DNA from: Yimella lutea
GTDB lineage: Bacteria; Actinomycetota; Actinomycetes; Actinomycetales; Dermatophilaceae
DNA length: 64,000 nt
Reading direction: 5' to 3'
Assembly (NCBI RefSeq): GCF_006715095.1
Contig: NZ_VFMO01000001.1
Span: 868,001 to 932,000 of the forward strand
The notes under the pieces were generated by a model, which saw only the letters and a program-made list of their open reading frames with translations, was not told the origin of the DNA and did not search any database. Shown piece after piece: positions 36,483 to 56,759 of the stretch (the first letter of the stretch is position 1; every line of letters starts with the position of its first letter). Made by a program: the position numbers and the translations under genes.

Positions 36483-37790
36483 GTGCACAACGCTACCTTC
36501 ACGACGCCTGACCTGACTACGTTCTGCCGCCTGGATGAGCTTGGTCTCCTCGCGACGGGTCAACGTCTTGAACCAGGCCGGGCGGTGCTGACGTGCCGGG
36601 TCGTTGAGGATGACCGGTGGTGTCACCGGTGCGGCTGCGAAGGGACCCCGCGGGGCAGCGTGGTCCGCCGGTTGGCCCACGAACCGTTCGGGTGGCGACC
36701 AACGACACTGCTGGTCACGGTACGGCGGTACCGGTGCACCGAGTGTGGGCATGTGTGGCGCCAAGACACCAGCCTCGCGGCCGAACCGCGAGCCACCTTG
36801 TCGCGGCGTGCGATGGCGTGGGCACTTGCCGCGATCGTGTGTCAGCACCTGACCGTCGCCCGGGTCGCTGAAGGACTCGGCGTTGCCTGGAACACCGCGA
36901 ATGACGCGGTCCTCGCCGAGGGGTACCGGGTGTTGATCAACGACCCGGCCCGGTTCGAAGGTGTCACCGCGATCGGGGTCGATGAACACGTCTGGCGCCA
37001 CACTCGGCACGGCGACAAGTACGTCACGGTGATCATCGATCTGACCCCGATCCAGGACGGCACCGGGCCAGCACGGTTGTTAGACATGGTTCCCGGCCGA
37101 TCCAAGGCCGTGTTCAAGACTTGGCTCGCCGACCGTGACCCAGCGTGGCGTGAGACGGTGCAGGTCGTCGCGATGGATGGGTTCACCGGCTTCAAAACTG
37201 CTGCTACCGAAGAACTCCCGGACGCGACCACGGTGATGGACCCGTTTCATGTCGTCCGGTTAGCCGGTGACGCCCTGGACAAGTGCCGGCGCCGGGTCCA
37301 GCACGAGCTGCACGGCCACCGGGGTCGGGCCGGTGACCCTTTGTACCGTGCGCGGCGCACGCTGCATACCGGAGCGGACCTGCTCACCGACCGGCAGCAG
37401 GACCGCCTCACCGCGTTGTTCGCGGTCGAGGAGCATGTGGAAGTTGAGTGCACCTGGGGCATCTACCAGCGGATGATCGCGGCGTACCGGCACCGCGACC
37501 GTGCCACCGGCAAGAAGCTCATGACCGCCCTCATCGATTCGATCAGTACCGGTGTGCCCAAGGCCTTGACCGAGATCACCACCCTTGGCCGCACCCTGAC
37601 CAAGCGGTCCGCCGACGTGCTGGCCTACTTCGACCGGCCTGGCACCAGCAACGGACCAACGGAGGCGATCAACGGTCGCCTCGAGCACCTACGCGGGTCG
37701 GCCCTCGGCTTCCGCAACCTCGCCCACTACATCGCCCGATCCCTCCTCGAAACCGGCGGCTTCAGACCTCAGCTACACCCTGGTTTGTGA
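36483..37790 (+). CDS. ISL3-family transposase
   Basis: 435 residues. An N-terminal zinc-finger region has CHRCGC (about 47-52) and CTECGHVW; the DDE catalytic core follows with GVDEHVWRH (first Asp), VAMDGFTGFK (second Asp) and SNGPTEAINGRLEHLRG (Glu), with the terminal GFRNLAHYIARSLLETGGF typical of ISL3. The frame is complete from GTG 36483 to the stop 6 bp before the right end, so the element may be active. Confidence 0.93.
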   Translation: MHNATFTTPDLTTFCRLDELGLLATGQRLEPGRAVLTCRVVEDDRWCHRCGCEGTPRGSVVRRLAHEPFGWRPTTLLVTVRRYRCTECGHVWRQDTSLAAEPRATLSRRAMAWALAAIVCQHLTVARVAEGLGVAWNTANDAVLAEGYRVLINDPARFEGVTAIGVDEHVWRHTRHGDKYVTVIIDLTPIQDGTGPARLLDMVPGRSKAVFKTWLADRDPAWRETVQVVAMDGFTGFKTAATEELPDATTVMDPFHVVRLAGDALDKCRRRVQHELHGHRGRAGDPLYRARRTLHTGADLLTDRQQDRLTALFAVEEHVEVECTWGIYQRMIAAYRHRDRATGKKLMTALIDSISTGVPKALTEITTLGRTLTKRSADVLAYFDRPGTSNGPTEAINGRLEHLRGSALGFRNLAHYIARSLLETGGFRPQLHPGL

Positions 37791-40031: not shown

Positions 40032-40078
40032 AGCGTACGCCGACCGGCGAGTAATACGGTCACTGCGTGCGTCAAGAT
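40032..40078. promoter_or_regulatory. Divergent leaderless -10 boxes (menF and menG)
   Basis: TACGCT (minus, 40037-40032) is 8 nt before GTG 40023; CAAGAT (plus, 40073-40078) is 6 nt before ATG 40085. Confidence 0.55.
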
Positions 40079-40084
40079 GGGCAC

Positions 40085-40777
40085 ATGAATCGCGCCAGCC
40101 TCGACAAGCGCCCCTCCGACGTCGCCCGGATGTTCGATGACGTGGCAGCCCGCTACGACATCACCAACGACGTCATGTCGATGGGGCAGGACCGCCGCTG
40201 GCGCAAGCAGGTGGTGGACGCCGTCGCACCCAAGCGTGGCGAACTCATCCTCGACATCGCTGCCGGCACCGGCACGTCGAGCGAGCCGTTCGAGGCGGCC
40301 GGTGCACAGGTCGTGCCCGCCGACTTCTCGCTCGGCATGCTGCGCGTCGGCAAGAAGCGTCGCGCCGACATGGCCTTCACCGCGGCGGACGCGATGAACC
40401 TGCCGTTCCCGGACAACACGTTCGACGCGGTCACGATGAGCTTCGGTCTGCGGAATGTCGAGAACTCGGTGAAGGCGCTCGCGGAGTTCCACCGCGTCAC
40501 CAAGCCCGGCGGACGCGTCCTCATCTGTGAGTTCTCGACGCCGACGAACCCGGTTTTCCGCAAGGTGTACTCCGAGTACTTGATGGGTGCGCTGCCACGC
40601 ATCGCCAAGCCGGTCGGATCGAACGCCGAGTCGTACGTGTACCTGGCCGAGTCGATCCAGGCCTGGCCCGACCAGGCCGGGATGGGCGCGCAGTTGCAGC
40701 AGGCCGGCTGGAGCGACGTGGAGTGGAAGAACCTCGCCGGCGGGATCGTCGCGCTGCACCGGGGCACCAAGGCCTGA
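40085..40777 (+). CDS. menG: Demethylmenaquinone methyltransferase MenG (UbiE)
   Basis: Performs the last methylation of demethylmenaquinone with SAM. 230 residues of the UbiE class: the N-terminal [22 protein letters not shown] signature seen in pieces near residue 12-35, the SAM motif [12 protein letters not shown], the second signature FGLRNVEN, and GGIVALHRG at the end. ATG 40085 suits the CAAGAT box; GTG 40067 is an alternative start. It shares the divergent promoter region with menF. Confidence 0.95.
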
Positions 40778-40837
40778 CTTCTTCGCGGTCCGGAGCACGC
40801 GTGGTCGGGTTCTCGTCCCGTCGGCGCCTTGGTTTCG

Positions 40838-40940
40838 GCGCGCACGCCTTCCTTCGTCAGGCGTGGGCTCTGCCAGCGGCGTTCGCAGGGTGCGGCTCGA
40901 CCAGCGGCGGTTGCGGATGTAGCTCGACCGGCGGTGTTTA
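40838..40940 (-). repeat. Cluster of GAGCC...GACGAAGG repeat copies, one with hairpin
   Basis: Read on the minus strand, 40879-40838 gives CGCTGGCAGAGCC, then CACGCCT, TGACGAAGG and AGGCGTG, the last pair forming a 7-bp stem (40843-40849, 40859-40865). Two further CTGGTCGAGC / CCGGTCGAGC fragments lie at about 40895-40935. The gap 40778-41038 holds no gene besides these repeats and the Rex-like operator. Confidence 0.6.
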
Positions 40941-40990
40941 GGATCGCCTTAGTAGGGAAATTCGAGGGCTGCGACGTAGAGTGCACGGGT

Positions 40991-41008
40991 TAGTGAACGT
41001 CTTCACAA
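40991..41008. promoter_or_regulatory. Rex-like operator upstream of menJ-nuo
   Basis: TAGTGAACGTCTTCACAA matches the redox repressor Rex consensus TTGTGAAnnnnTTCACAA at 13 of 14 defined positions. It lies 30 bp before menJ, near TAGAGT (40977-40982) and TTAGTG (40990-40995), either of which could be the -10. In Streptomyces, Rex controls nuo, cyd and atp genes according to NADH/NAD+. Rex itself is not encoded in this window. Confidence 0.6.
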
Positions 41009-41038
41009 GCAGACCCAGAAGCACCGAGGAACCCCACT

Positions 41039-42316
41039 GTGAGCCAGGCTGCCCCGCATCATGCGGCGGAGGGAACCGCTGACGTCATCGTCGTCGGCGC
41101 AGGCCCCGCAGGTTCGGCGACCGCAGCGCACCTGGCCCAGGCCGGCCTCGACGTGCTGGTGCTGGAGAAGGCCACTTTCCCCGACGACACCGACCGCGGC
41201 AACAACCGTGGCGAGGCTCTGTCTCCGCGCGCGGTTCGCGAACTGATCACCCTCGGCGTCCCCACCGACGGATGGGTGCGCACCAAGGGTGTGCGGATCA
41301 TCGGTGGCGGCATGCGACTGCAGGTCGCCTGGCCGGACGAGGCCGCCTTCCCGCCGTACGGTTTCGTGCGCAGCCGGCGCGAACTCGCCCAGGCCCTCGC
41401 CGAGCATGCCGCGGCCGAGGGCGCCCGCGTGCTGCACGGGGTCGAGGTCACCGGGCCGATCACGGACTCGAACGGCAGGATCGTCGGCGTCGAGGCTCGG
41501 CGCATCGACGACGAGGGCGCGAAGGTCGGCTTCGACACGCCGCTGGTCATTGCGGCCGACGGCGCCGGGTCGGTCCTGGCGCAAGTGGCCGGTCTCGAGT
41601 CGGAGCAACCCGAGATGTACGCGGTCTGCGCCACGTACACCAGTCCGCGCAGCAACGACGACCACCTGGAATCCTGGGTCGAACTCCCGACGCCGGACGG
41701 CGGTGAGCCGATGCGTGGCCGCGGCTGGATCCATGGCCTGGGCGACGGCACGAGCACCGTCGGACTCACCGTTCGCGAGGACATTGCGCCGGCCGACGCC
41801 GCGAACGCCCTGAAGCGCTGGGTGGCGACGATGCCGTCCGAGTGGACCTTCGACGACTCCACGATGCAGGGCGAGATCGAGGGCGCGCGCCTTCCGGCGG
41901 GTCTGACCCGCGGGCGGTTGTACACCGACGGGCTGTTGCTCGTCGGCGACGCAGGAGCCTGCACCAACCCGTTCACCGGCGAGGGCATCGCTGCCGCGCT
42001 GGAGTCCGGCCGCCTCGCTGCGCAGGTTGTCGTCCATGCCTTCGCGCGCTGCGATGCCGCCGGTCGCGAGCAGGTCCTGGCTTCCTACCCGGACGCCGTG
42101 AGCGGCGCGCTGGGTGGGTACTACACAATGGGTCGTTGGTTCGCCAAGATGATCGGCAACCCGCACCTCGAGCGCTGGGCCGTGAAGTACGCGGTACCCC
42201 GCGCGACGACGATGCGGTTCGCGGTGAAGTTGATGGCAAACCTCGGTGACACCCACGGCCGCAACGCCGACGACCGGCTGCTGGCAGCCCTGACACGGGT
42301 GACCCCGGCAGCATGA
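41039..42316 (+). CDS. menJ: Menaquinone reductase MenJ (geranylgeranyl reductase family)
   Basis: A FAD enzyme that saturates one isoprene unit of the menaquinone tail. 425 residues with the Rossmann motif VVGAGPAGSATAAHLAQ near residue 18, the GEALSPRAVREL and PYGFVRSRRELAQAL segments and the second FAD motif LLVGDAGACTNPFTGEGIA. It is the last step after menG and lies upstream of nuoA by 55 bp, so it may share the nuo transcript. The GTG start is at 41039; the RBS is GAGGAACCCC. Confidence 0.93.
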   Translation: MSQAAPHHAAEGTADVIVVGAGPAGSATAAHLAQAGLDVLVLEKATFPDDTDRGNNRGEALSPRAVRELITLGVPTDGWVRTKGVRIIGGGMRLQVAWPDEAAFPPYGFVRSRRELAQALAEHAAAEGARVLHGVEVTGPITDSNGRIVGVEARRIDDEGAKVGFDTPLVIAADGAGSVLAQVAGLESEQPEMYAVCATYTSPRSNDDHLESWVELPTPDGGEPMRGRGWIHGLGDGTSTVGLTVREDIAPADAANALKRWVATMPSEWTFDDSTMQGEIEGARLPAGLTRGRLYTDGLLLVGDAGACTNPFTGEGIAAALESGRLAAQVVVHAFARCDAAGREQVLASYPDAVSGALGGYYTMGRWFAKMIGNPHLERWAVKYAVPRATTMRFAVKLMANLGDTHGRNADDRLLAALTRVTPAA

Positions 42317-42371
42317 GCGTGAATACCATGGAGCGTCGCTCGATCATGAGCGCCTGGAAGGAGTCGGCCCG

Positions 42372-42746
42372 ATGCAAGGGATGACGAACTACTCGTATGC
42401 ACCGCTGTTGTTCTTCGCGGCCATCGGTCTGTTCTTCGCGGTGTTCTCGGTCGTCGCCGGTGCACTCGCCGGCCCGAAGCGATACAACCGCGCCAAGGCG
42501 GACGCGTACGAGTGCGGCATCCAGCCCACCCCGCACGCGGACGGCGGCGGACGCGTCCCGGTCAAGTACTACCTGACCGCGATGCTCTTCATCATCTTCG
42601 ACATCGAATCGGTGTTCCTCTACCCGTTCGCTGTCTCCTTCGACCGCATGGGCCTGTTCGCCCTGGTCGAAATGGTGCTGTTCATCCTGACCGTCTTCGT
42701 GGCCTACGCATACGTGTGGCGCCGCGGCGGCCTCGACTGGGACTGA
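42372..42746 (+). CDS. nuoA: NADH-quinone oxidoreductase subunit A
   Basis: Membrane subunit of complex I; 124 residues, three helices. The family motifs are [23 protein letters not shown] and [13 protein letters not shown], containing the conserved acidic residues near the quinone site. A GGAAGGAG ribosome site precedes ATG 42372. First gene of the 14-gene nuo operon. Confidence 0.95.
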
Positions 42747-42756
42747 GGTCCGAAAC

Positions 42757-43311
42757 ATGGGTATTGAAGAGAAGCTCCCCGCAGGCTTCCTGCTGTCGAC
42801 CGTCGAGAACGTCGCCGGCTACATGCGCAAGAGTTCGATGTGGCCCGCCACCTTCGGTCTGGCTTGCTGCGCGATCGAGATGATGGCCGTCGGCACGCCC
42901 GACTACGACATCGCCCGCTTCGGTATGGAGCGCTTCTCAGCCACCCCGCGCCAGGCCGACCTGATGATCGTCGCCGGCCGTGTCAGCCAGAAGATGGCTC
43001 CCGTCGTGCGCCAGGTCTACGACCAGATGCCTGAGCCGAAGTGGGTCATCTCGATGGGCGTGTGCGCCAGCTCCGGCGGCATGTTCAACAACTACGCGAT
43101 CGTGCAGGGTGTCGACCACATCGTCCCGGTCGACATCTATTTGCCCGGTTGCCCGCCGCGTCCGGAGATGCTGCTGAACGCGATCCTCGAACTGCACAAG
43201 CAAGTGCAGTCGAGCCCGCTCGGCGTCAACCGCGTCGAGGCCGCCCGTGCCGCCGAGCGCGCCGCCATGCAAGCCACCCCCACCCACCAGATGAAGGGCC
43301 TTCTCGCGTGA
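42757..43311 (+). CDS. nuoB: NADH-quinone oxidoreductase subunit B
   Basis: Carries the N2 4Fe-4S cluster next to the quinone. 184 residues; the cluster ligands are the tandem Cys37-Cys38 (ACCAIE), Cys103 (GVCASSGG) and Cys132 (PGCPPRP). The C-terminal tail ([13 protein letters not shown]) is typical of actinobacterial forms. The stop overlaps the nuoC start (GTGA). Confidence 0.96.
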
Positions 43312-44111
43312 ACGACAACGAGAAGAAGGACGTCCCCCAGGATCCGGTGAACGGCCCGGTCGTGCCGGCGCCCACCGAGCAGAAGCCCGAGACCGAAATC
43401 GCCCAGGAGGACGGCCGCGTCCTCGACACCCGCGAGGGCGGCGGTCCCGTCGTCGTCGCGAAGCGCCAGGGCATGTTCGGCTCGTCGATGGGCAACGACA
43501 CCACCGGTTACGGCGGTCTTGAGCGCAAGGTGCTCTTTCCCGGCGAGGCGCAGCGTCCGTACGGCGGCTGGTTCGACAAGCTCGCCGACGATCTGGCTGC
43601 AGCGGTCGACAAACGCGGGGGAGCCTCGTTCGCCGACGCGATCCAGCGAGTTGTGGTCGACCGCGGGGAACTGACCCTCTTCGTGACCCGTGAGCACCTG
43701 CCGATCGTGGCGCAGACGCTTCGTGACGAGCCCTCGCTGCGCTTCGAGATGTGCGCCGGTGTTTCCGGTGTGCACTACCCGCAGGAGGCGGGTGCGGAGT
43801 TGCACGCGGTCTACCACCTGCTGTCGATCACCAACGGCAGCAAGCGAATTCGCCTCGAGGTGACGGCCCCCGAGAGCAACCCGCACATCCCGAGTATCAC
43901 CTCGGTGTGGCCCGGTGCCGACTGGCACGAGCGCGAGACCTGGGACATGTTCGGACTGATCTTCGACGGTCACCCCGCACTGACCCGCATCCTGATGCCG
44001 GACGACTGGCCCGGCCACCCGCAGCGCAAGGACTACCCGCTCGGCGGAATCCCGGTGGAGTTCAAGGGCGCCACCATTCCGCCGGCCGACGAGCGCAGGA
44101 GCTACAACTGA
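43308..44111 (+). CDS. nuoC: NADH-quinone oxidoreductase subunit C
   Basis: 267 residues, a peripheral-arm subunit near the quinone pocket. The C-terminal domain has the 30-kDa signature [16 protein letters not shown] and [21 protein letters not shown]. The first 75 residues are acidic and disordered-looking ([15 protein letters not shown] onwards), a longer tail than in proteobacteria but usual in actinobacteria. GTG 43308 overlaps the nuoB stop, and its stop overlaps the nuoD start. Confidence 0.95.
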
Positions 44112-45463
44112 TGTCGACCGCCACGAACGAACGCGACCCCTTCGGCGCCTCGAACCACGACGTCGACGACGACACCCCGGTCATCAACGCGACCGGCGGC
44201 GACTGGGACTCCGTCGCCGAGGAGGCGTCCGCCCTCAACGAGGAGCGGATCGTCGTCAACATGGGTCCGCAGCACCCCTCGACGCACGGCGTCCTTCGCC
44301 TGATCCTCGAACTCGACGGCGAGACCGTCACCGAGGCTCGCGCCGGAATCGGCTACTTGCACACCGGCATCGAGAAGAACATGGAGTTCCGCACCTGGGT
44401 GCAGGGCGTCACGTTCTGCACGCGTATGGACTACGTGATGCCGCTGTTCAACGAGGCGGCTTACTGCCTCGCGGTCGAGAAGGTGCTCGGCATCACCGAC
44501 CAAATCCCGGAGCGTGCCAACACCATCCGCGTGATGATGATGGAGTTCAACCGGATCACCTCCCACCTGGTTGCCCTGGCGACCGGCGGGATGGAGCTCG
44601 GCGCGACCACCGTCATGACCATCGGCTTCCGTGAGCGAGAGCGCATCCTGCGGATCTTCGAGATGGTCAGTGGTCTGCGCATGAACCACGCTTATATCCG
44701 TCCCGGCGGTGTGGCTCAGGATCTCCCGGTCGGCACCATCGACGCAGTGCGCGAGATGCTGCCGAAGCTGAGCAGGGGCATCGGCGAACTCGAGGCGCTG
44801 CTGAACGAGAACCCGATCCTCAAGGGCCGCATGGTCGACGTCGGCTACCTCGACCTCACCGGCTGCACGGCCCTCGGCATTACCGGCCCGATCCTGCGCT
44901 CGGCGGGTCTGCCGCACGACCTGCGCAAGACCGAGCCGTACTGCGGTTACGAGACCTACGACTTCGAGGTCGCCGTGCGCGACACCTGCGACGCCTACGG
45001 ACGACTGCGGGTGCGCATCGATGAGATGTACCAGTCGATCCGCATCGTCGAGCAGGCCATCGAGCGCTTGGAGAACAACCCGGGCCCGGTCATGGTCGCC
45101 GACAAGAAGATCGCCTGGCCGGCGCAGCTGGCCGTCGGCAGCGACGGTCAGGGCAACAGCCTCGACCACATCCGCGAGATCATGGGCGAGTCCATGGAGT
45201 CGCTGATCCACCACTTCAAGCTGGTCACCGAAGGATTCCGGGTGCCGGCAGGACAGGCCTACGTCGCGATCGAATCGCCCAAGGGCGAACTCGGCTGCCA
45301 TGTCGTCTCCACCGGCGGCACGCGTCCGCACCGGGTGCACTTCCGTGACCCGTCGTTCAACAACCTGCAGGCCGCGGCCGCGATGAGTGAGGGCGGCGCC
45401 GTCGCCGACGTCATCGTCGCCGTTGCCTCGATCGACCCTGTGATGGGAGGCGTCGACCGCTGA
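44111..45463 (+). CDS. nuoD: NADH-quinone oxidoreductase subunit D
   Basis: 450 residues, homologous to hydrogenase large subunits, forming the quinone-binding cavity with NuoB. Motifs: [16 protein letters not shown] near residue 51, [30 protein letters not shown] and the C-terminal [11 protein letters not shown]. The first 45 residues are an acidic extension. The start overlaps the nuoC stop and the stop overlaps the nuoE start, giving tight coupling. Confidence 0.96.
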
Positions 45464-46293
45464 TGAGCGCCGAGAGCCCGCTCCACGAGAAGACCCCACT
45501 GCACGCCAGCGCCGAGCCGTACACCGACGAGCAGCTGGCTCAATTGCACGTCGACGCCGACGCGATCGTGGCCCGCTACCCGCAGAAGCGGTCCGCGCTG
45601 CTGCCGATGCTGCACCTGATCCAGTCGGTCGACAGTTACATCACCGGCCGCGGCGTCACCTTCTGCGCCGAGAAGCTCGACCTCACCGACGCCGAGGTGT
45701 CGGGTGTGGCCACGTTCTACACCCAGTACAAGCGCCACCCCAACGGCGACTACACGATCGGCGTCTGCACCAACACGCTGTGCGCGATCATGGGCGGCGA
45801 CCAGATCTTCGACGAACTGTCCGAGCACCTCGGCATCGGCCACGACGAGACGACGCCCGACGGCAGGATCACCCTCGAACGCGTCGAGTGCAATGCCGCG
45901 TGCGACTACGCCCCGGTGGTCATGGCCAACTGGGAGTTCTTCGACTACATGACCCCCGAGGCCACCAAGCAGGTCGCCGACGACCTGCGGGCCGGCAAGG
46001 ACGTGCGTCCGAGCCGTGGCCCGAACAAGGTCTGCACCTTCAAGCAGGTCTCGCGTACGCTCGCCGGGTTCTCCGACGGCCTTGCGGACGAGGGTGTCGG
46101 CGCGGGCCCCGCGTCCCTGGAGGGTCTGAAGGTCGCCAAGCAGCACAACTGGACCGCACCGGGCAGCGCGCAGGACGTCGATTCCGACCACCAGGCCACT
46201 GCCGAGGCCGGCGGTCGCCAGCCGCAGCCGGGGGAGGCCCACTCGGGCGCCGAAGGTCATGGCACCGCAGAGTCCGCGAAGGGTGACAACTGA
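45463..46293 (+). CDS. nuoE: NADH-quinone oxidoreductase subunit E
   Basis: The 2Fe-2S subunit of the NADH module. 276 residues; the thioredoxin-fold region has the cluster cysteines CTNTLC (about 105-110) and CNAACDYAP (about 146-150). The last 70 residues form a Gly/Ala/His-rich low-complexity tail (GGRQPQPGEAHSGAEGHG), making the protein about 70-100 residues longer than the E. coli form. It overlaps nuoD and nuoF. Confidence 0.95.
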   Translation: MSAESPLHEKTPLHASAEPYTDEQLAQLHVDADAIVARYPQKRSALLPMLHLIQSVDSYITGRGVTFCAEKLDLTDAEVSGVATFYTQYKRHPNGDYTIGVCTNTLCAIMGGDQIFDELSEHLGIGHDETTPDGRITLERVECNAACDYAPVVMANWEFFDYMTPEATKQVADDLRAGKDVRPSRGPNKVCTFKQVSRTLAGFSDGLADEGVGAGPASLEGLKVAKQHNWTAPGSAQDVDSDHQATAEAGGRQPQPGEAHSGAEGHGTAESAKGDN

Positions 46294-47609
46294 TGGCCAC
46301 GACGCTGACCCCGATCCTCACCAAGTTCTGGGACGCACCGCAGTCCTGGACCCTGGCGACCTACGAGGACAACGAGGGCTACCAAGCGCTGAAGAAGGCG
46401 TTCGGCATGAGCCAGGAAGAACTCGTCAACATGACGAAGGACTCCGGCCTGCGCGGACGCGGCGGCGCCGGCTTCCCGACCGGTATGAAGTGGGGCTTCC
46501 TGCCCAAGCCGGACGGCGGCCCCCGCTACCTCGTGGTCAACGCCGACGAGTCCGAGCCGGGCACCTGCAAGGACATCCCGTTGATGATGGCCGCGCCGCA
46601 CTTCCTCATCGAGGGTGTGGCGATCACGTCGTTCGCTATCGGTTGCAACCACGCGTTCATCTACCTGCGCGGTGAGGTCGTCCACGTCTACCGGCGCCTG
46701 CTGCGCGCGGTGGAGGAGGCGTACGCCGCCGGGCACCTCGGCAAGAACATCCACGGCTCCGGGTTCGATCTCGATGTCACCGTGCACGCCGGCGCCGGTG
46801 CCTACATCTGTGGTGAGGAGACCGCGCTGCTCGACTCGCTTGAGGGCCGTCGTGGCCAGCCGCGCCTGAAGCCGCCGTTCCCGGCCGTCGCCGGTCTGTA
46901 CGCGCGTCCGACCGTCGTCAACAACGTCGAGTCGATCGCGTCCGTGCCGCCGATCCTGTTGCACGGCAGTGACTGGTTCAAGGCAATGGGCACCGAGAAG
47001 TCGACCGGTTTCGGCATCTTCTCGCTGTCGGGTCACGTCACGCGTCCGGGTCAGTACGAGGCGCCGATGGGCATCACCCTGCGCGAACTCGTCGACATGG
47101 CCGGCGGTATCCGGGGCGGTCACAAGCTGAAGTTCTGGACGCCGGGTGGCTCGTCCACGCCGATCTTCACCGACAAGCACTGGGACGTCCCGCTCGACTT
47201 CGAGTCGGTGGCCGCCGAGGGTTCGATGCTCGGTACCCGCGCCCTGCAGATCTTCGACGAGACCGTCTCGGTCGTCCGTGCCGTCAGCCGCTGGATCGAC
47301 TTCTACGCGCACGAGTCCTGCGGCAAGTGCACCCCGTGCCGCGAGGGCACGTTCTGGCTGAAGCAGATCATGACTCGCCTCGAGAACGGTCGTGGCACCC
47401 AGGACGACATCGAGAAGCTCCTCGACATCTGCGACAACATCCTCGGCCGGAGCTTCTGTGCTCTGGGCGACGGAGCCACCAGCCCGGTCACCTCCGCGGT
47501 GAAGTACTTCCGCGACGAGTTCGAGGCCGGTATGCACACGCCGTGGTGGGAGATGTTCCCGCCCGAGCGCTCGGTGCTGTTCAACACGAAGGAGACCGTG
47601 TCCGCATGA
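46293..47609 (+). CDS. nuoF: NADH-quinone oxidoreductase subunit F
   Basis: The NADH- and FMN-binding subunit. 438 residues; [16 protein letters not shown] and [12 protein letters not shown] bind NADH and [18 protein letters not shown] follows, and the N3 4Fe-4S ligands are in [12 protein letters not shown] plus a downstream Cys (SFCALGDGA). The stop overlaps the nuoG start (ATGA). Confidence 0.97.
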
Positions 47610-50089
47610 TGACCGTCACCTCTCCCTCGGCCGGCGGCAACGCCGTCGACAAGGGCGGCAACGCTGCGCCCCCGATCGTGGCCGACGAGATCACCCTGAC
47701 CATCGACGGCGTGGACGTCAGCGTGCCCAAGGGCACGCTGGTCATCCGCGCCGCGGAGAAGCTCGGCATCCAGATCCCGCGCTTCTGCGACCACCCGCTG
47801 CTCGACCCGGTCGGCGCCTGCCGCCAGTGCCTGGTCGACGTCTCGACCAAGGGTCCCGACGGCTCGCTGAAGCCGATGCCGAAGCCGCAGGCGTCCTGCA
47901 CCCTCGAGGTCAGCGACGGCATGGAGGTCAAGACGCAGCAGACCAGCCCGGTCGCCGACAAGGCACAGCAGGGCGTCATGGAGCTGCTGCTGCTCAACCA
48001 CCCGCTCGACTGCCCGGTGTGTGACAAGGGCGGCGAGTGCCCCCTGCAGAACCAGGCGATGAGCAACGGCCGCGCCCGGTCGCGCTTCGAGGACATCAAG
48101 CGCACCTACCCCAAGCCGATCAACATCTCCAGCCAGGTGCTGCTCGACCGTGAGCGTTGCGTGCTGTGCGCCCGCTGCACCCGCTTCTCCGACCAGGTCG
48201 CCGGTGACCCGTTCATCGCCCTGATCGAGCGTGGTGCGCTGCAGCAGGTCGGCATCTACGAGGAGCAGCCCTTCGAGAGCTACTTCTCCGGCAACACCGT
48301 GCAGATCTGCCCGGTGGGTGCACTGACCAGCGCGATGTACCGCTTCCGCGCGCGTCCGTTCGACCTGGTCTCGACGCCGAGCGTGTGTGAGCACTGCGCC
48401 AGCGGTTGCTCGCTGCGTACCGACCAGCGCCGCGGTGTGGTGCTGCGCCGCATGGCGATGGACGACGTCCTGGTCAACGAGGAATGGAACTGCGACAAGG
48501 GTCGCTGGGCCTTCCAGTACGCCACCAAGAACCGCCTCGAGACGCCGATGGTGCGCGACGAGAATGGTGAACTGCGCGTCGCCGGCTGGCCCGAGGCCAT
48601 CGCCGCCGCCGCGGACGGTCTCGCCAGGGCCCGTGCCGCCCAGGGCGTCGGTGTGCTGACGGGTGGCCGCCTGTCGGCCGAGGACGCGTACGCGTACGGC
48701 AAGTTCGCCCGTCTGGTGCTCAACACCAACGACGTCGACTTCCGCGCCCGCCCGCACTCGGCCGAGGAGGCCGAGTTCCTGGCACACGCCGTGGTCGCGA
48801 CCGGTCCCGCCGGTGGCGCGGTCACGCACGCCGACCTGGAGAACGCGAAGAACGTCGTGCTCGTGGGCTTCGAGCCCGAGGACGAGTCGCCGATCGTGTT
48901 CCTGCGCCTGCGCAAGGGCTTCCGCAAGAACAACGTCAACGTGCTCTCGCTGGCCTCCTACGCCAGCCGCGGTCTGGAGAAGATGGGTGGCACGTTGGTG
49001 CCGACCGCTCCGGGCACCGAGGCGGAGGTGCTGGACGCCCTGGGCGACCTCAACACCGAACTGGCCAAGTCGAACCCGATCGAGGGTGACGTGATCGTGC
49101 TCGTGGGTGAGCGCATGGCCGCTTCGCCGGGTGCGCTGTCCGCGGCCGCCGCATTCGCCGCGTCCAAGAAGGGCCGCCTGGCCTGGGTCCCGCGTCGCGC
49201 GGGGGAGCGCGGTGCGCTCGAAGTCGGTGCGTTCCCGACCCTGCTGCCCGGTGGCCGCGATGTCACCGACGCCGCTGCCCGCGATCAGGTCGCGACCGTC
49301 TGGGGCGAGGGCGACCTGCCCTCGACGCCGGGCCGTGACACCGGCTCGATGCTGGCCGCTGCCGCGTCCGGCGACCTGTCCGCGCTCGTCGTGGCCGGCG
49401 TCGACCCGCGCGACCTCACCGGTCAGGGAACCGTTCGCCAGGGTCTGACCAACGCGTTCGTGGTCTCTTTGGAGATCCGCGACAACGAGGTCGCGCAGTA
49501 CGCCGACGTGATCCTGCCGGTCGCCCCGCAGCAGGAGAAGTCCGGCGCCTATGTCAACTGGGAAGGCCGCGTCCGCCCGTTCCAGCGTGCGATCGACACC
49601 CAGTCGATGAGCGACTACCGCGTGCTCGACCTGCTCGCCGCCGAGATGGGCGAGTTCCTCGGCACCCGCACGATCGACCAGATCCGCGCGGAGATGGACG
49701 AACTCGGTCCGTGGACCGGCACCCGCGCGGTGCGTCCGCGTGCCAAGGCCGGCGGCGCCCCGCGTCCGCTGGTCGGCGAGGCGATCCTGGCCACCTGGGC
49801 GCAGCTGCTCGACAACGGAGTGCTCCAGGACGGCGAACCGTTCCTGGCCGGCACCCGCCGTCCGGCGGTGGCTCGCATGTCGCAGGCCACCGCGTCCGGC
49901 GCGGGCGTGGTCGACGGCGATCTGGTGCAGGTCTCCACCAAGTCCGGTGCCATCACCCTCCCGGTGTTGATCACCGCCATGCCCGACCACGTGGTCTGGG
50001 TGCCGACCAACTCCGACGAAAGCACGGTGCGTTCGACGCTCGACGTCGACGCCGGTGCGGCCGTCGCACTGCGCAAGGCAGGTGCCTGA
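47606..50089 (+). CDS. nuoG: NADH-quinone oxidoreductase subunit G
   Basis: 827 residues carrying several Fe-S clusters. The N-terminal 2Fe-2S ligands are in [19 protein letters not shown] (Cys61, Cys72, Cys75); the His/Cys cluster is at [16 protein letters not shown], and the next 4Fe-4S site at [11 protein letters not shown] and ICPVGAL. The inactive molybdopterin-like domain begins at [10 protein letters not shown] and ends with a C-terminal molydopterin-dinucleotide-like domain. ATG 47606 overlaps the nuoF stop. Confidence 0.96.
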
Positions 50090-51482
50090 GTGAACTCCGT
50101 GGCTCACCTCCTGACGGCCGTCCCGGCCGCCACCGACAACCCGGTGGCCGACTTCAGCGACACCCCGTGGTGGCTGTCGCTGGTCAAGGCGGTCCTGCTG
50201 TTCGTGTTCCTGCTGGTGAACACGCTGGTCGTCATCTGGTTCGAGCGTCGCGTCATCGGCCGGATGCAGCAGCGTCCGGGCCCGAACCGTGCCGGCCCCT
50301 TCGGTTTGCTGCAGACGCTGGCCGACGGTGTGAAACTGGCGCTGAAGGAAGACGTCACCCCCAAGAACGCCGACAAGCTGATGTTCATGCTGGCTCCGAT
50401 GATCGCCGGTGCGATGGCGTTCGTCGCGTTCGCGGTCATCCCGCTGTCGAACGAGGTGTGGATGTTCGGTCACCGCACCCCGCTGCAGCTGACCGACACT
50501 CCGGTGGCGGTGCTGCTCGTGCTCGCGGTGGCGGGTGTGGGTGTGTACGGCATCCTGCTCGCCGGTTGGTCCTCCGGTTCGACCTACCCGCTGCTGGGTG
50601 GCCTGCGTTCCTCGGCCCAGGTCATCTCCTACGAGATCGCGATGGGCCTCGCGCTGGTCGCGGTGTTCCTGTACGCCGGCTCGATGTCGACCAGTCAGAT
50701 CGTCTACGCGCAGAAGAGCCTGTGGTACATCATCCCGGCGTTCTTCTCTTTCTTCGTCTACCTGATCACCATGGTCGGTGAGACCAACCGTCTACCGTTC
50801 GACCTCGCCGAGGGTGAGGGCGAGCTCACCGGTGGTTTCCACACCGAGTACTCCTCACTGAAGTTCGCGATGTTCTTCCTGGGTGAGTACGTCAACATGT
50901 TCACCGTCTCCGCGTTGGCGACCACGCTGTTCCTCGGCGGCTGGCAGGCGCCCCCGCTCATCTCGATGATCGGTGACGGCATGCTCAACGGCGGCTGGTG
51001 GGGCCTGTTGTGGTTCAGCCTGAAGCTGTGGACGTTCATGTTCTTCTTCGTCTGGCTGCGTGGTTCGTTGCCGCGTGTCCGGTACGACCAGTTCATGAAG
51101 CTCGGCTGGAAGGTTGCTCATCCCGGTCACCCTGCTCTGGGTCGTCGCGGTCGCGTTCATCCGCGCCTCCCAGCTCGGCTTCCTCGGTGACAACCGGATC
51201 TCCTTCGCCGGCTTCGACATCCCGCGGGCAACGCTGTTGGTCACCAGCCTGATCGCGCTCGCCGTCCTCGGTGCCGCATGGGCTTGGGATGCCAAGCAGG
51301 CACGCAAGGAGACCGAGGTCCGGCAGGTGCCGGACGAGATCGATCCGTTCGCCGGCGGTCACCCCGTACCGCCTCTGCCGGGCCAGCGCCTGGTCGAACC
51401 CGCGCCCAGCCTGACCTCCTCGAGCGTCCGGTCGAGCGCCCACAGCACCGACACCACCCTCCAGGAGGAGTCCCGTGGCTGA
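50090..51482 (+). CDS. nuoH: NADH-quinone oxidoreductase subunit H, frameshifted
   Basis: The 463-residue product would link the arms and quinone site. The frame from GTG 50090 shows [19 protein letters not shown] and [24 protein letters not shown] (in pieces), then reads [11 protein letters not shown] and goes out of frame at 51113-51116 (GGTTGCTC; GGTGCTC expected), ending at 51190 in an unnatural Arg/His/Pro tail. The other frame supplies [21 protein letters not shown] and the usual C terminus to 51482. One extra T explains it. A sequence error is as likely as a real mutation. nuoI overlaps by 8 bp. Confidence 0.9.
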
Positions 51483-52155
51483 CCAGAAAAAGCCTGACGA
51501 CGACGGCGAGAAGGGCGGATTCCTCTCCGACCTGTTCGCGCCCATCGCGGGCTTCGGCGTCACCTTCGCAACCATGTTCCGCAAGATCGAGACGCAGGAG
51601 TACCCGGAGGAGAAGCGGCCGACCCAGCTGCGCTTCCACGGGCGTCACCAGCTCAACCGTCACCCGGACGGGCTGGAGAAGTGCGTCGGCTGCGAGCTGT
51701 GCGCGTGGGCCTGCCCGGCCGACGCGATCTTCGTGGAAGGCGCGAACAACAATGACGCCGAAGGTGAGCGCTTCAGCCCCGGCGAACGGTACGGCCGCGT
51801 TTACCAGATCAACTACCTGCGCTGTATCTTCTGCGGCCTGTGCATCGAGGCCTGCCCGACGCGCGCGCTGACGATGACCAACGAGTACGAACTGGCCGCC
51901 AACAACCGCGCCGACCTCATCTTCACCAAGGAGCAGCTGCTGGCTCCGGTGCTGTCGGGCATGCTGCCCGCGCCGCACCCGATGGTCGAGGGCATGGAGG
52001 AGCGCGACTACTACCAGGGCAAGGTGCAGGGCGCCACGGACGAACAGCGCGAGTGGGTCGAGCAGCGCGGCGGCGACACCGTCGTCGACGAGCCCCACGA
52101 AACCCCGGTCGAGCACCGGGAGGCCGGCCGCTACGCAGGGGAGGGACGCCCGTGA
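51475..52155 (+). CDS. nuoI: NADH-quinone oxidoreductase subunit I
   Basis: A double 4Fe-4S ferredoxin-like subunit, 226 residues. Ligands are Cys70, 73, 76, 80 ([12 protein letters not shown]) and Cys117, 120, 123, 127 ([12 protein letters not shown]). An amphipathic N-terminal helix ([20 protein letters not shown]) faces the membrane; the acidic C-terminal tail is an actinobacterial extension. GTG 51475 is preceded by AGGAG. Confidence 0.96.
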
Positions 52156-52943
52156 GCAACCTCGGTGGAGCCGAGTCGACGCTCTTCTTCTTCCTCGCAC
52201 CGCTGACCGTCTTCGGTGCGCTCGCTCTGTTGTTCGCCCGCAAGGCGGTGCACGCCGCGATGGGGATGGCCCTGACGATGGTCGGGATGGGTGTCTTCTA
52301 CATCGCTCAGAACGCCGAGTTCCTGGGTGTCATCCAGATCTTCGTGTACTCCGGCGCCGTGATGATGCTGTTCCTGTTCGTCGTCATGCTGGTCGGTGTC
52401 GACAGTTCCGACTCCCTGGTCGAGACGATCAAGGGTCAGCGGGTCGCCGGTCTGCTGCTGGGCCTCGCGCTGGCCGCACTCGGCGTCGCCGCGGTCGCCA
52501 AGGCGAACTTCGGTCCGTTCACCGGCCTGGACAAGGTCAACGAGCAGGGCAACGTCAGCAGTATGGCGAACCTGATCTTCGGCCAGTACGTGTGGACCTT
52601 CGAGGTCACCTCGGCGCTGCTGATCACCGCCGCCCTCGGCTCGATGGTGCTCGCGCACCGTGAGCGCCTGACCGCCAAGCCGACCCAGGCCGACTGGTCG
52701 CGAGCTCGCATCAAGAGCGGCAAGGACGTCGCGGGTCTGCCGGTGCCGGGTGTCTACGCCCGCCACAACGCGGTCGACACCCCGGCACTGCTGCCCGACG
52801 GATCGATCGCCGAGAAGTCGGTGTCGCGCGTCCTCAAGGCCCGTGGCCAGGTGGCCTCTACCAGTGAGCTGGTCGCCGCGAGCAAGGAGCTTGAGGGCGA
52901 GACCGGCGACATGACTCGTTACGACGGAGGTACGGACCGATGA
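52152..52943 (+). CDS. nuoJ: NADH-quinone oxidoreductase subunit J
   Basis: Membrane subunit, 263 residues, with five helices in the first 175; the conserved [27 protein letters not shown] region is present (seen as two motifs). A soluble C-terminal tail of about 85 residues is much longer than in E. coli (about 184 residues in total there). GTG 52152 overlaps the nuoI stop; its stop overlaps the nuoK start. Confidence 0.95.
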
Positions 52944-53239
52944 GCCCCATGGTCTACATCTACCTGTCGGTGATCCTGTTCGCGATCGGCGCGACGACGG
53001 TGCTGCTGCGGCGCAACGCGATCATCGTCTTCATGGGCGTCGAGCTGATGCTCAACGCGGCGAACCTGGCGTTCGTCACCTTCGCGCGCATGCACGGCAC
53101 GGTCGACGGGCAGGCCATCGCACTGTTCGTGATGGTGGTCGCGGCCGCCGAGGTCGTGGTCGGCCTGGCGATCATCATGGCGATCTTCCGGGCGCGCCGC
53201 TCGGCCTCCGTCGACGACGCGAACTTGCTGAAGTTCTAA
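52940..53239 (+). CDS. nuoK: NADH-quinone oxidoreductase subunit K
   Basis: 99 residues with three helices. The proton-path acidic residues are in [14 protein letters not shown] and [15 protein letters not shown]. Family length is normal. It overlaps nuoJ (ATGA) and is followed by nuoL after 17 bp. Confidence 0.96.
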
Positions 53240-53256
53240 GGGAACGGTGACTTGAG

Positions 53257-55212
53257 TTGAACTTCCTCACGACCTCTGTCCAGGGCGCCGTCCTGGCGTC
53301 CGGCGAGGCGCAGACCGCACACGCCGCCGAGGGCATCGCGTCCCTGGGCTGGCTGATGATCGCGTTGCCGCTGCTGGGTGCTGCCGTGCTGCTGCTCGGC
53401 GGACGCAAGCTGGACAAGATCGGTCCGCTGCTGGCGACCGTGCTGTCCTGGGCCTCCTTCGGCGTCGGCCTCGCCGTCCTGCTCGGCATGCTCGGCAAGG
53501 ACAGCCACGACCGCGCAGCTCACCTGAAGCTGTTCTCGTGGATCGACGCCGGCGCGCTGAACGTCGACTTCGGCCTGCTGATGGACCAGCTGTCGATGAC
53601 CTTCGTCATGCTGATCACCTTCGTCGGCTCGCTGATCCACGTGTACTCCCTGGGTTACATGGAGCACGACCCGGACAAGCGCCGGTTCTTCGCCTACCTG
53701 AACCTCTTCATCGCCGCGATGCTGACGCTGGTGCTCGCCGACTCCTACGTCGGTCTGTTCCTCGGCTGGGAAGGCGTGGGTCTGGCCTCCTACCTGCTGA
53801 TCGGTTTCTGGAACTGGAACCCGGCGTACGCGACCGCCGCCAACAAGGCGTTCATCATGAACCGTGTCGGTGACTTCGGTCTGCTGCTGGCGATGTTCAC
53901 GATGTTCGCCACCTTCGGCCGCGTCGACTTCGCCGGAGTCAACGAGCAGGTCGCCGGAGCCGGCAGGGGCGCGCTCACCGCGATGGGAATCTTCCTGCTG
54001 ATCGCTGCCTGCGGTAAGTCGGCGCAGTTCCCGCTGCAGGCCTGGCTGGGCGATGCGATGGCCGGCCCGACGCCGGTCTCGGCGCTGATCCACGCGGCCA
54101 CCATGGTGACCGCGGGTGTGTACCTCATCGTCCGCAGCAATGTCATCTACGACGCCACGCCGGACGCCCGTCTCGCGGTCTGCATCGTGGGTGCGATCAC
54201 GTTGATGTTCGGTGCGATCGTGGGATGTGCCAAGGACGACATCAAGAAGGCGCTGGCCGCCTCGACGATGTCGCAGATCGGTTACATGATCCTGGCCGCC
54301 GGTCTCGGCCCGGTCGGGTACGCGTTCGCGATCTTCCACCTGGTCACGCACGGCTTCTTCAAGGCGGGCATGTTCCTCGGTGCCGGTTCGGTCATGCACG
54401 GAATGAACGATCAGGTCGACATGCGCCGCTTCGGCGGGCTGTCCTCGGTCATGAAGATCACCTGGATCACCTTCGGCCTCGGCTGGCTGGCGATCATCGG
54501 TGTGCCGGGTCTGTCCGGTTTCTGGTCCAAGGACAAGATCATCGAGGCCGCGTTCATCGGCGAGGGCTGGCGTCCGTGGGTCTTCGGCGGGGCGACGCTG
54601 CTGTGCGCGGGTATCACCGCGTTCTACATGTCGCGTCTGTTCTTCATGACTTTCCACGGCAAGCGCCGCTGGACCGACGACGTCCACCCGCACGAGTCGC
54701 CGCTGTCGATGACGGTGCCGATGATGATCCTCGCGGTCGGTTCGGCCTTCCTCGGTCTGGCCCTCACGCTGCTGGACTTCCCGCACTGGCTGGAGCCGGT
54801 GGTCGGCGCCCACCCTGAGGGTGAGCACCCGGTCATCGCGATCCCGGTGATCATGGCGCTGACGATCCTGTTCGTCGCCGTGGGTGTGGCCCTGGCGTGG
54901 ATGCGCTACTGGCGCGACGACGTCCCCGTGACGCCGCCGGTCGGTTCGTTCGCCACGCGTGCCGCGCGTCGCGACCTGTTCCAGGACGACCTCAACGAGG
55001 CCGCGTTCGCTCGTCCCGGCCTGCACCTGACCCGCTCGCTGGTCTTCGCCGACAACAAGGGCATCGACGGCGCCGTCGGCGGCACGGCCGCGATGATCGG
55101 CGGCAGCTCCTCGCGCCTGGCGAAGCTGCAGAACGGTTTTGTCCGCTCCTACGCGACAACGATGCTCGTGGGCATCGTCGCGATCCTCGGTCTGCTGTGG
55201 GTGATCAACTGA
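53257..55212 (+). CDS. nuoL: NADH-quinone oxidoreductase subunit L
   Basis: Largest antiporter-like proton-pumping subunit, 651 residues, with about 16 helices and the lateral helix at the end ([24 protein letters not shown]). Motifs: [40 protein letters not shown] (in pieces), the conserved Lys/His region [21 protein letters not shown], and [14 protein letters not shown]. The TTG start at 53257 has a weak GGGAACGG upstream. Confidence 0.96.
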
Positions 55213-56759
55213 TGTCCAACTTCCCCTGGTTGACGACGATCGGCGTCGTGCCGTTGGTCGGCGCCATCGTTATCGGCTGCCTGCCGAAGGCAGCCGCGGC
55301 CTCGGCGCGCCTGGTCGCGCTGGTGTTCTCGCTGATCACCCTCGGTCTGGGCATCGCCGCGGCGACCCAGTTCAAGACCGGCGGCAGCGGTCAGCAGTTC
55401 CAGCTGACGGAGACGCACACCTGGATCAAGCAGTTCGGTGTCTCCTACGCGCTCGGTGTCGACGGCATTGCGCTCGCGCTCATCCTGATGAGCCTGGTGC
55501 TGGTGCCGATCGCGATCCTGGCCGCCTGGCGCGATGTCGAGGACGACACCCCCGGCCGGCAGAAGGCGTACTACGCGCTGCTTCTGGTGCTGGCCACCTT
55601 CATGGTCGGTGTCTTCGCCGCCACGGACGTCTTCCTGTTCTACGTCTTCTTCGAGGCGATGCTGATCCCGGTCTACTTCCTGATCGGCCAGTTCGGCGGC
55701 CCGCGCCGCCAGTACGCCGCAGTGAAATTCCTGATCTTCTCCCTCGCCAGTGGACTCGTCATGCTCGTCGCGGTCATCGGCCTGTTCCAGGCCGGTCCCG
55801 GCGGGGAACACGGCTTCCTGGTCAGCCGCCTGACCGGGATCGACATCCCGCTCGATACCCAGAAGTGGTTGTTCGTCGGCTTCTTCATCGCGTTCGCGGT
55901 GAAGGCCCCGATGGCGCCGGTGCACACCTGGTTGCCGGACGCCGCCGCCGAGTCCAAGCCGGCCGTCGCCGTCCTGCTCGTCGGTGTGCTCGACAAGGTC
56001 GGCACCTACGGAATGATCCGGTTCTGCCTGCAGCTGTTCCCGGACGCGTCCAAGTGGGCAACGCCCGTGGTCATCACGCTGGCGGTCTTCTCGATCATCT
56101 ACGCGGCGATCGTGGCGATCGGCCAGACCGACATGATGCGCCTGATCGCCTACACCTCGGTGAGCCACTTCGGCTTCATCGTGCTCGGCATCTTCGCGAT
56201 GACCAGCACCTCGCACGTCGGCGCGAACCTCTACATGATCAACCACGGTTTCACCACCGGTGCGTTGTTCCTGTTCGCCGGCTTCCTCGTGGTGCGCGGT
56301 CGCAGCCAGAACATCCCCGACTACGGCGGTTGGCAGCGGGTCACCCCGGTACTCGCCGGTGTATTCCTGATCGCCGGTCTGTCCGGTCTGGCGTTGCCGG
56401 GTCTGAACTCCTTCGTCTCGGAGTTCCTGGTCATGGTGGGCACCTTCGGCAAGTACTGGCTGGCTGCGGCGATCGCCGCGGTGGGCGTCATCCTGGCCGC
56501 GATCTACATCCTGCTGATGTACAAGCACCTGATGACCGGTCCGAAGCCGGAGGGGGAGCGGTTCGCCGCCGTGCGCGACCTCGACGTCCGCGAGAAGGTC
56601 GTCGCCGCAGTCCTGATCGCCTTCCTGATCGGTCTGGGTGTGTACCCCAAGCCGGCCCTTGACATGTTGAAGCCCGCCGTGACGCAGACGCTGCAGCACG
56701 TCGGGGTGACCGACCCCGCTCCGAAGACCGGTGCGGCCGTTGACGGGAGCGCCAAGTAA
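55212..56759 (+). CDS. nuoM: NADH-quinone oxidoreductase subunit M
   Basis: Proton-pumping antiporter-like subunit, 515 residues, about 14 helices. It has the conserved DGIALALILMSLVLVPIAIL, FYVFFEAMLIPVYFLIG with the key Glu, KAPMAPVHTWLPDAAAESKPA and YTSVSHFGFIVLGIFA. ATG 55212 overlaps the nuoL stop and its stop overlaps the nuoN start. Confidence 0.96.
   Translation: MSNFPWLTTIGVVPLVGAIVIGCLPKAAAASARLVALVFSLITLGLGIAAATQFKTGGSGQQFQLTETHTWIKQFGVSYALGVDGIALALILMSLVLVPIAILAAWRDVEDDTPGRQKAYYALLLVLATFMVGVFAATDVFLFYVFFEAMLIPVYFLIGQFGGPRRQYAAVKFLIFSLASGLVMLVAVIGLFQAGPGGEHGFLVSRLTGIDIPLDTQKWLFVGFFIAFAVKAPMAPVHTWLPDAAAESKPAVAVLLVGVLDKVGTYGMIRFCLQLFPDASKWATPVVITLAVFSIIYAAIVAIGQTDMMRLIAYTSVSHFGFIVLGIFAMTSTSHVGANLYMINHGFTTGALFLFAGFLVVRGRSQNIPDYGGWQRVTPVLAGVFLIAGLSGLALPGLNSFVSEFLVMVGTFGKYWLAAAIAAVGVILAAIYILLMYKHLMTGPKPEGERFAAVRDLDVREKVVAAVLIAFLIGLGVYPKPALDMLKPAVTQTLQHVGVTDPAPKTGAAVDGSAK

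Follow-up and report, generated by a model that had tools for sequence, protein, structure and literature searches.

A probable Rex operator, accompanied in its family by a probable iron half-site, at the promoter of the predicted ggr-nuo operon of Yimella lutea

In Yimella lutea, a single operon appears to encode a flavoprotein of the geranylgeranyl reductase family (ggr), respiratory complex I (nuoA-N) and a polyprenyl diphosphate synthase. This operon is likely preceded by an operator from which NADH would release Rex, and in the family of Y. lutea the same promoter would probably also read iron through IdeR/DtxR. The proposal was built from sequence comparison, namely from the site, the Rex gene, the joint presence and loss of the two, the geometry of the promoter, the iron half-site and a DtxR gene. 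The window, meaning the whole stretch of 64,000 nucleotides that was analysed, contained the following features:

40067 to 40777, + strand: menG, demethylmenaquinone methyltransferase (NF001241, 369.7 bits, cut-off 327), the upstream neighbour of the promoter.
40938 to 40952, + strand: probable IdeR/DtxR iron half-site TTAGG-N4-CCTTAG, TTAGGATCGCCTTAG, immediately before the expected −35 position.
40954 to 40959, + strand: expected −35 position, AGGGAA, placed by position only with a 17-nt spacer and unlike TTGACA.
40977 to 40982, + strand: predicted −10 hexamer TAGAGT, the conserved TANNNT before the operator.
40991 to 41008, + strand: very probable Rex operator TAGTGAACGTCTTCACAA, covering about +3 to +20 relative to the predicted start, assigned by consensus match and conservation.
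41039 to 42316, + strand: ggr, geranylgeranyl-reductase-family flavoprotein of the nuo-linked subfamily (TIGR02032; FAD-binding Pfam domains).
42372 to 58300, + strand: nuoA-nuoN, respiratory complex I (NCBIfam models; nuoI by frame and motifs).
58308 to 59318, + strand: polyprenyl diphosphate synthase, with its ATG at 58308, 7 nt after the nuoN stop.

The operator is an 18-bp palindrome on the forward strand, the coordinates and letters of which were verified in the window. It differs from the Rex consensus TTGTGAANNNNTTCACAA in a single position, position 2, and its end is separated by 30 nt from the GTG start (41039) of the 425-aa flavoprotein gene. The original prediction of a Rex-like operator in front of a reductase and nuo was thus exact in letters, coordinates, the one off-consensus position and the distances of 30 bp and 55 bp. 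Models, frames and coordinates also bore out its gene order of reductase, 55-bp gap, nuoA-N and polyprenyl synthase: the ggr stop ends at 42316 and nuoA starts 55 nt on, at 42372. NuoA, B, C, D, E, F, G, H, J, K, L, M and N scored above their NCBIfam cut-offs, and nuoI was assigned to the open frame 51475-52155 from its CxxCxxCxxxCP motifs, without a model match; the other frame in that place, 51278-51868, matched no model either. The polyprenyl synthase had its best match in NPPPS_Mycobact with 322.9 bits, below the cut-off of 600 for that model. To the left of the menaquinone genes, an ISL3-family transposase gene is located at 36483-37790 of the window (368.5 bits, cut-off 180). A second nuoB-like gene with 51% identity is found 10 kb to the right of the window (G000:C1:942066-942524, L249) and has counterparts in several genomes of the family of Y. 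lutea.

For the comparison with relatives, 90 loci were scanned and the 74 in which ggr is directly followed by nuoA were counted. The 16 loci left out were ten Streptomyces-like ones (L057-L066) and L033, L044, L048, L050, L051 and L100; L100 is cut by a contig end and L044 carries the operator. In the interval from 450 nt upstream to 60 nt downstream of the gene start, the operator was found with at most two mismatches in 63 of the 74 ggr-nuoA loci (no mismatch, n = 10; one, n = 38; two, n = 15), and each of 60 permuted palindromes of equal composition was found in none of the 74. The 63 loci span 19 family labels. The commonest departure from the consensus, in the window as well, was in position 2, with a C in 39 and an A in 9 of the 63. 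A set of 80 named loci, which partly repeats the 90-locus set (L157 is L095, for example) and is not independent of it, had the operator with at most two mismatches before ggr in 40 cases. Among the carriers were Intrasporangium, Janibacter, Kribbella, Micromonospora, Salinispora, Saccharopolyspora, Actinomadura, Nonomuraea, Nocardiopsis and Frankia. The nearest named loci were those of Intrasporangium, Agilicoccus and Janibacter (54, 53 and 51% identity). A Cellulomonas MAG displayed the site before ggr with three mismatches, and four of the 80 named loci, outside the Streptomycetaceae, had no operator.

Two further palindromes were observed in these regions. A second Rex-like site with 2-3 mismatches is present in the ggr-nuoA gap of L028, L036 and L184, which could mean that nuoA has, or formerly had, an operator of its own. 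In the family f36 (L091-L094 and L105) a different long palindrome, TTACGCAAC ... GTTGCTGCGTAA-like, was found upstream of the same promoter and is perhaps the site of another regulator.

The operator occupies a regular place in the promoter. A TANNNT hexamer was located 7-17 nt upstream of it in all 63 site-bearing loci, and in 57 of these it had the form TA[GC]A[GC]T, which was found in 0 of 63 at a control position 75 nt farther upstream. With TAGAGT of the window taken as the −10 hexamer, the operator is predicted to cover about +3 to +20. A generic promoter and terminator scan of 40700-42900 returned no promoter-like and no terminator-like site. The −10 assignment therefore rests on conservation, and, with no terminator-like site in that interval, a single ggr-nuo transcript is plausible.

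Judged by its distribution, the operator follows complex I and not the reductase. All eight genomes devoid of the nuo-linked reductase carried the site, with 1-2 mismatches, between menG and nuoA. In four other genomes (G011, G040, G041 and G042) menG adjoins ggr and Rex is present, nuoB is missing (G011 has a 53% paralogue only), and no Rex site was found before ggr, the best sequences having 6-7 mismatches. None of the 35 named loci from Streptomycetaceae had the site before ggr, and all 19 of them with nuoA in reach had a 2-mismatch site before nuoA, 1.7-2.6 kb behind ggr. The footprinted sequence of S. avermitilis, TTGTGACCTGCTTCACAT, was unchanged in 13 of these 19 loci and in three of four further Streptomyces-like stretches with nuoA (nuoA was seen in four of the six downstream stretches L107-L112). 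On this gene order, ggr would be the usual first gene behind the complex I operator, its usual passenger, and Streptomyces, in which Rex control of nuo was shown, would be a lineage with ggr outside that operon. The original prediction had put MenJ under the redox switch of nuo; the two are indeed coupled in gene order, yet it is complex I rather than the reductase to which the operator is tied. Its statement that Rex regulates nuo in Streptomyces agrees with published work on Streptomyces avermitilis (PMC5355995). Its remark that it knew of no description of the coupling is also in keeping with the Streptomyces loci followed, where ggr lies outside the Rex-controlled nuo operon.

The same observations leave some room for a different account, in which the role of Rex is confined to complex I. 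Under this account ggr would be a bystander that has an unrelated role or is served mainly by a promoter of its own, and quinone saturation would not be redox-controlled. An operator that stays with nuoA when ggr is elsewhere, in the eight loci without the reductase and the 19 of Streptomycetaceae alike, agrees with it, as do the bare ggr of the four Rex-bearing menG-ggr genomes without a close nuoB and the lack of a site at eight of eight MenJ-type loci (below). It has to be set against the 63 loci of 19 family labels in which ggr lies between operator and nuoA, where ggr must be transcribed from that promoter unless another exists, and the scan of 40700-42900 offered no other promoter-like site. 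We regard the bystander account as somewhat unlikely.

Upstream of the −10 hexamer, the loci of the family of Y. lutea have a block in common, TTAGG-N4-CCTWA, which the original prediction had missed on this promoter. The copy in the window forms a half-site palindrome of the TTAGGNNNNCCTAA type and is probably the site of one IdeR/DtxR dimer. With at most two mismatches the half-site was present in 20 of the 22 operator-bearing loci of the family, starting 38-40 nt before the −10 hexamer, and absent from two; half-sites with permuted arms (at most 29 distinct) were found in at most 3 of the 22. No half-site was detected in any of 41 operator-bearing loci outside the family. Six of the eight loci without ggr contained it (6/6 in the family of Y. 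lutea, 0/2 in f5). In the named loci it was found in seven of eight Micromonosporaceae, in Intrasporangium, Agilicoccus, Janibacter and Humibacillus, and with two mismatches in Actinotalea. Most other named genera were without it, and no block of this kind was found at the corresponding position of two Saccharopolyspora loci.

The block could instead be an extended element of the core promoter or the site of some other regulator. Its near-fixed distance of 38-40 nt to the −10 hexamer would fit such an element, and genome-wide the pattern was not enriched (6 and 6 matches against 24 and 20 for the reversed control). An exact copy was also located next to a transposase gene, and three other places with one mismatch had no gene assignment. 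However, copies with 0-1 mismatch also precede three genes of iron-uptake type in Y. lutea, one for a Peripla_BP_2 lipoprotein and two for siderophore-interacting proteins, and the genome contains a DtxR gene above cut-off (NF053665, 305 bits, cut-off 290). In S. erythraea, moreover, a half-site of this kind at nuo is reported to be bound by IdeR (PMC8464063). The block is absent from most families and is therefore no general part of the promoter. A core element or foreign site is accordingly unlikely in our estimation, and the iron half-site is retained as the probable reading.

The reductase gene was called menJ in the original prediction, and this name did not survive the model scores. The product of 41039-42316 matched the geranylgeranyl reductase superfamily model TIGR02032 with 188.2 bits, above the cut-off of 158.8. 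It reached 184.1 bits with the MenJ model NF045655, far below the cut-off of 700, and was not the best MenJ match of the genome. That match is a gene at G000:C1:1611340-1612563 (L113), away from nuo, which scored 567 bits along its entire length; the genome-wide site list contains no Rex-like site near it. Neither Corynebacterium glutamicum nor any of 80 genomes reached the cut-off of 700; 12 of the 80 had a MenJ-type gene (>560 bits) and four had no match at all. Identity was 32-41% between the two reductase types, and 50-72% and 65-82% within them (5 and 7 proteins). When 58 relatives were sorted by score and identity (G045 and G050 without a check against the MenJ model), 36 had the nuo-linked type only, 10 the MenJ type only, 4 both and 8 neither, an avoidance with p = 4e-4, uncorrected for kinship. 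Three of the four relatives with both types belong to the genus of Y. lutea, which is among the few with both. In none of the eight MenJ-type loci examined did the best site have fewer than 5 mismatches. With Y. lutea, which was judged from its genome-wide list, this covers nine of the 12 genomes that have the MenJ type.

By these comparisons ggr appears to be a sister subfamily of MenJ that largely replaces it across genomes. In the four genomes without a close nuoB, ggr stays beside menG. The mutual avoidance of the types, together with this place beside menG without complex I, suggests that both types reduce the menaquinone tail, and ggr likely does so. The naming of MenJ and ggr is handled loosely in papers: proteins named geranylgeranyl reductase were assigned to MenJ by BLAST (PMC9686282), and two Streptomyces were stated to lack a menJ homologue (PMC13403950). 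That ggr is MenJ itself would agree with such assignments, with the shared superfamily and with the near-complementary distribution, which suggests the same job, but 184 against 567 bits in one genome and an identity of 32-41% between types make it very unlikely. Orthology is contradicted, while equal activity would still be possible.

A Rex gene was identified in Y. lutea (PF06971 and NF003992, 308.7 bits, cut-off 226). It is located 9 kb to the left of the window, with hemA and a gene for porphobilinogen deaminase behind it; the site before rex, TTGTGCCTGCGTTCACGA, has three mismatches. A search with this Rex found the protein in 66 of 80 genomes; the 80 together contain 68 of the 90 loci, 58 of these with the ggr-nuoA junction. 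Among the ggr-nuoA genomes, 47 had both site and Rex, none had the site without Rex, two had Rex without the site (G004 and G008) and nine had neither, the last belonging to seven family labels (f1, f3, f10, f13, f14, f20 and f25). The association gave a Fisher p = 5e-9, uncorrected for kinship, which overstates it because related genomes are not independent. In G004 and G008 the Rex site at the ATP-synthase genes was kept, so Rex probably works there and only the site at the nuo promoter was lost. With at most one mismatch, 53 of 59 genomes in the family of Y. lutea had 1 to 4 sites, against 3 of 59 for the reversed control. Thirty near-perfect loci of the family, one per genome, were compared with six reference proteins, and 18 were located at ATP-synthase genes, 6 at rex, 1 at ggr and 1 at nuoA. 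At four near-perfect sites with 0-1 mismatch (L266, L267, L268 and L284) the adjacent genes matched none of the six. The Rex-lacking genomes G010, G014 and G015 had no near-perfect site.

Regulators of the cAMP type recognise TGTGA-N6-TCACA, with a half-site geometry as in the Rex operator. The palindrome could on this ground be a CRP/GlxR site, and Crp-type HTH domains were present in all 24 genomes searched, including Y. lutea. The site, however, was absent from all nine tested ggr-nuoA genomes without Rex, whereas Crp-type HTH domains were kept in 14 of 14 Rex-lacking genomes; this family is broad, with matches in all 14 control genomes as well, so that the finding weakens the CRP reading without implying a GlxR orthologue in each genome. 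The inner AA..TT of the palindrome is conserved, and the other near-perfect sites in the family of Y. lutea coincide with Rex targets already published. Since the site goes with Rex while the Crp-type HTH domains of this broad family stay, a CRP site was rejected as highly improbable, and the palindrome is very probably a Rex operator.

The genome-wide search for such sites together with a Rex gene, proposed along with the original prediction, yielded two sites with at most one mismatch, TAGTGAACGTCTTCACAA being one of them, and the Rex gene described above. The genome (G000) is one contig of 3,533,116 bases, and about 0.036 such sites are expected from its base composition. A chance origin of TAGTGAACGTCTTCACAA was rejected as having negligible probability, for although matches with at most three mismatches are common (1 in the window against 0.34 expected, reached by 30 of 100 shuffles; 25 palindromic matches in the genome against 18 for the reversed control), the site is near-unique at one mismatch and conserved in 63 of the 74 ggr-nuoA loci. 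The second site, TTGTGATAACTTTCACAA, lies between a gene taken for wecA-like and ATP-synthase-associated genes (Cg1360 family above cut-off, PF09527).

Rex control of nuo in Streptomyces and IdeR at nuo in S. erythraea are already known, each published separately. In S. avermitilis, Rex represses nuo, and the footprinted respiratory operons were nuo, ATP synthase, rex-hem and cyd, with the nuo operator between −42 and −16 relative to the nuoA start (PMC5355995). For S. coelicolor the Rex regulon names nuoA-N as SCO4562-75 (PMC8981147). Y. lutea resembles both in having a Rex operator before nuo, in rex-hem and ATP synthase as targets and in the consensus (PMC5355995, PMC8981147). Unlike in the Streptomyces loci followed, where the operator precedes nuoA and ggr lies 1.7-2.6 kb upstream and outside, ggr is enclosed here, and unlike that of S. 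avermitilis (PMC5355995) the Y. lutea operator is predicted to be behind the start. In S. erythraea, a single IdeR dimer bound to a half-site of the nuo cluster with a KD of about 102 nM, and the consensus was redefined as 14 bp; the function of half-sites was left open, and nuo is said to be iron-induced in two other bacteria (PMC8464063). The 14-bp type of half-site at nuo is shared with Y. lutea, but the accessible text of that account has neither Rex nor ggr, whereas the Y. lutea half-site has a fixed distance to the −10 hexamer and a Rex operator beside it (PMC8464063). Like MenJ of Mycobacterium (NF045655, PMC5936774), ggr belongs to the same superfamily and adjoins menaquinone genes, with a nearly complementary distribution; it differs from MenJ in identity, in the separate MenJ-type gene of Y. 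lutea and in the lack of a Rex operator at the MenJ-type loci examined. The gene order ubiE-ggr-nuo of Actinomyces oris, in which insertions in ggr and nuo fell into one phenotype class, is the same as in Y. lutea (PMC5478893); the text consulted does not deal with the regulation of that locus. In a literature search that left most subscription journals outside its scope, no account was found of Rex over a nuo-linked reductase or of Rex and IdeR at one nuo promoter.

The regulation may be depicted as follows: Rex with NAD+ bound would most likely occupy the operator immediately downstream of the −10 hexamer, from about +3 to +20, and prevent transcription from starting. A rise in NADH would release Rex, and complex I would be made together with the ggr flavoprotein, the probable function of which is to saturate the menaquinone tail. 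Bound next to the expected −35 position, where this promoter offers a poor −35 sequence, DtxR loaded with iron would most likely help the RNA polymerase, so that the operon would run when NADH is high and iron sufficient. In this scheme the binding of Rex and IdeR, the direction of both effects, co-transcription across the 55-nt gap and the compound reduced by the enzyme are inferred. Complex I needs many iron-sulfur clusters, and activation by plentiful iron is most likely for this reason. IdeR is reviewed as a repressor of uptake genes and an activator of storage genes (PMC10317159), so repression of the nuo promoter would also be possible.

A wider reading is offered tentatively: one promoter answering to NADH through Rex and to iron through IdeR may make complex I together with a menaquinone-tail reductase other than MenJ, the saturation of menaquinone may follow NADH and iron in many actinobacteria, and the nuo-linked type may be the missing reductase of actinobacteria without a MenJ-type gene, Streptomyces included. 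The nuo-linked gene would then be a concrete candidate for the menaquinone-saturating enzyme in such actinobacteria, sharing one switch with complex I in many families. Natural controls may be found in Streptomyces and in the genomes with a MenJ-type gene, where the reductase has become separated from the switch. The constant spacing between half-site and −10 hexamer would make testable the role of IdeR at half-sites, left open in PMC8464063.
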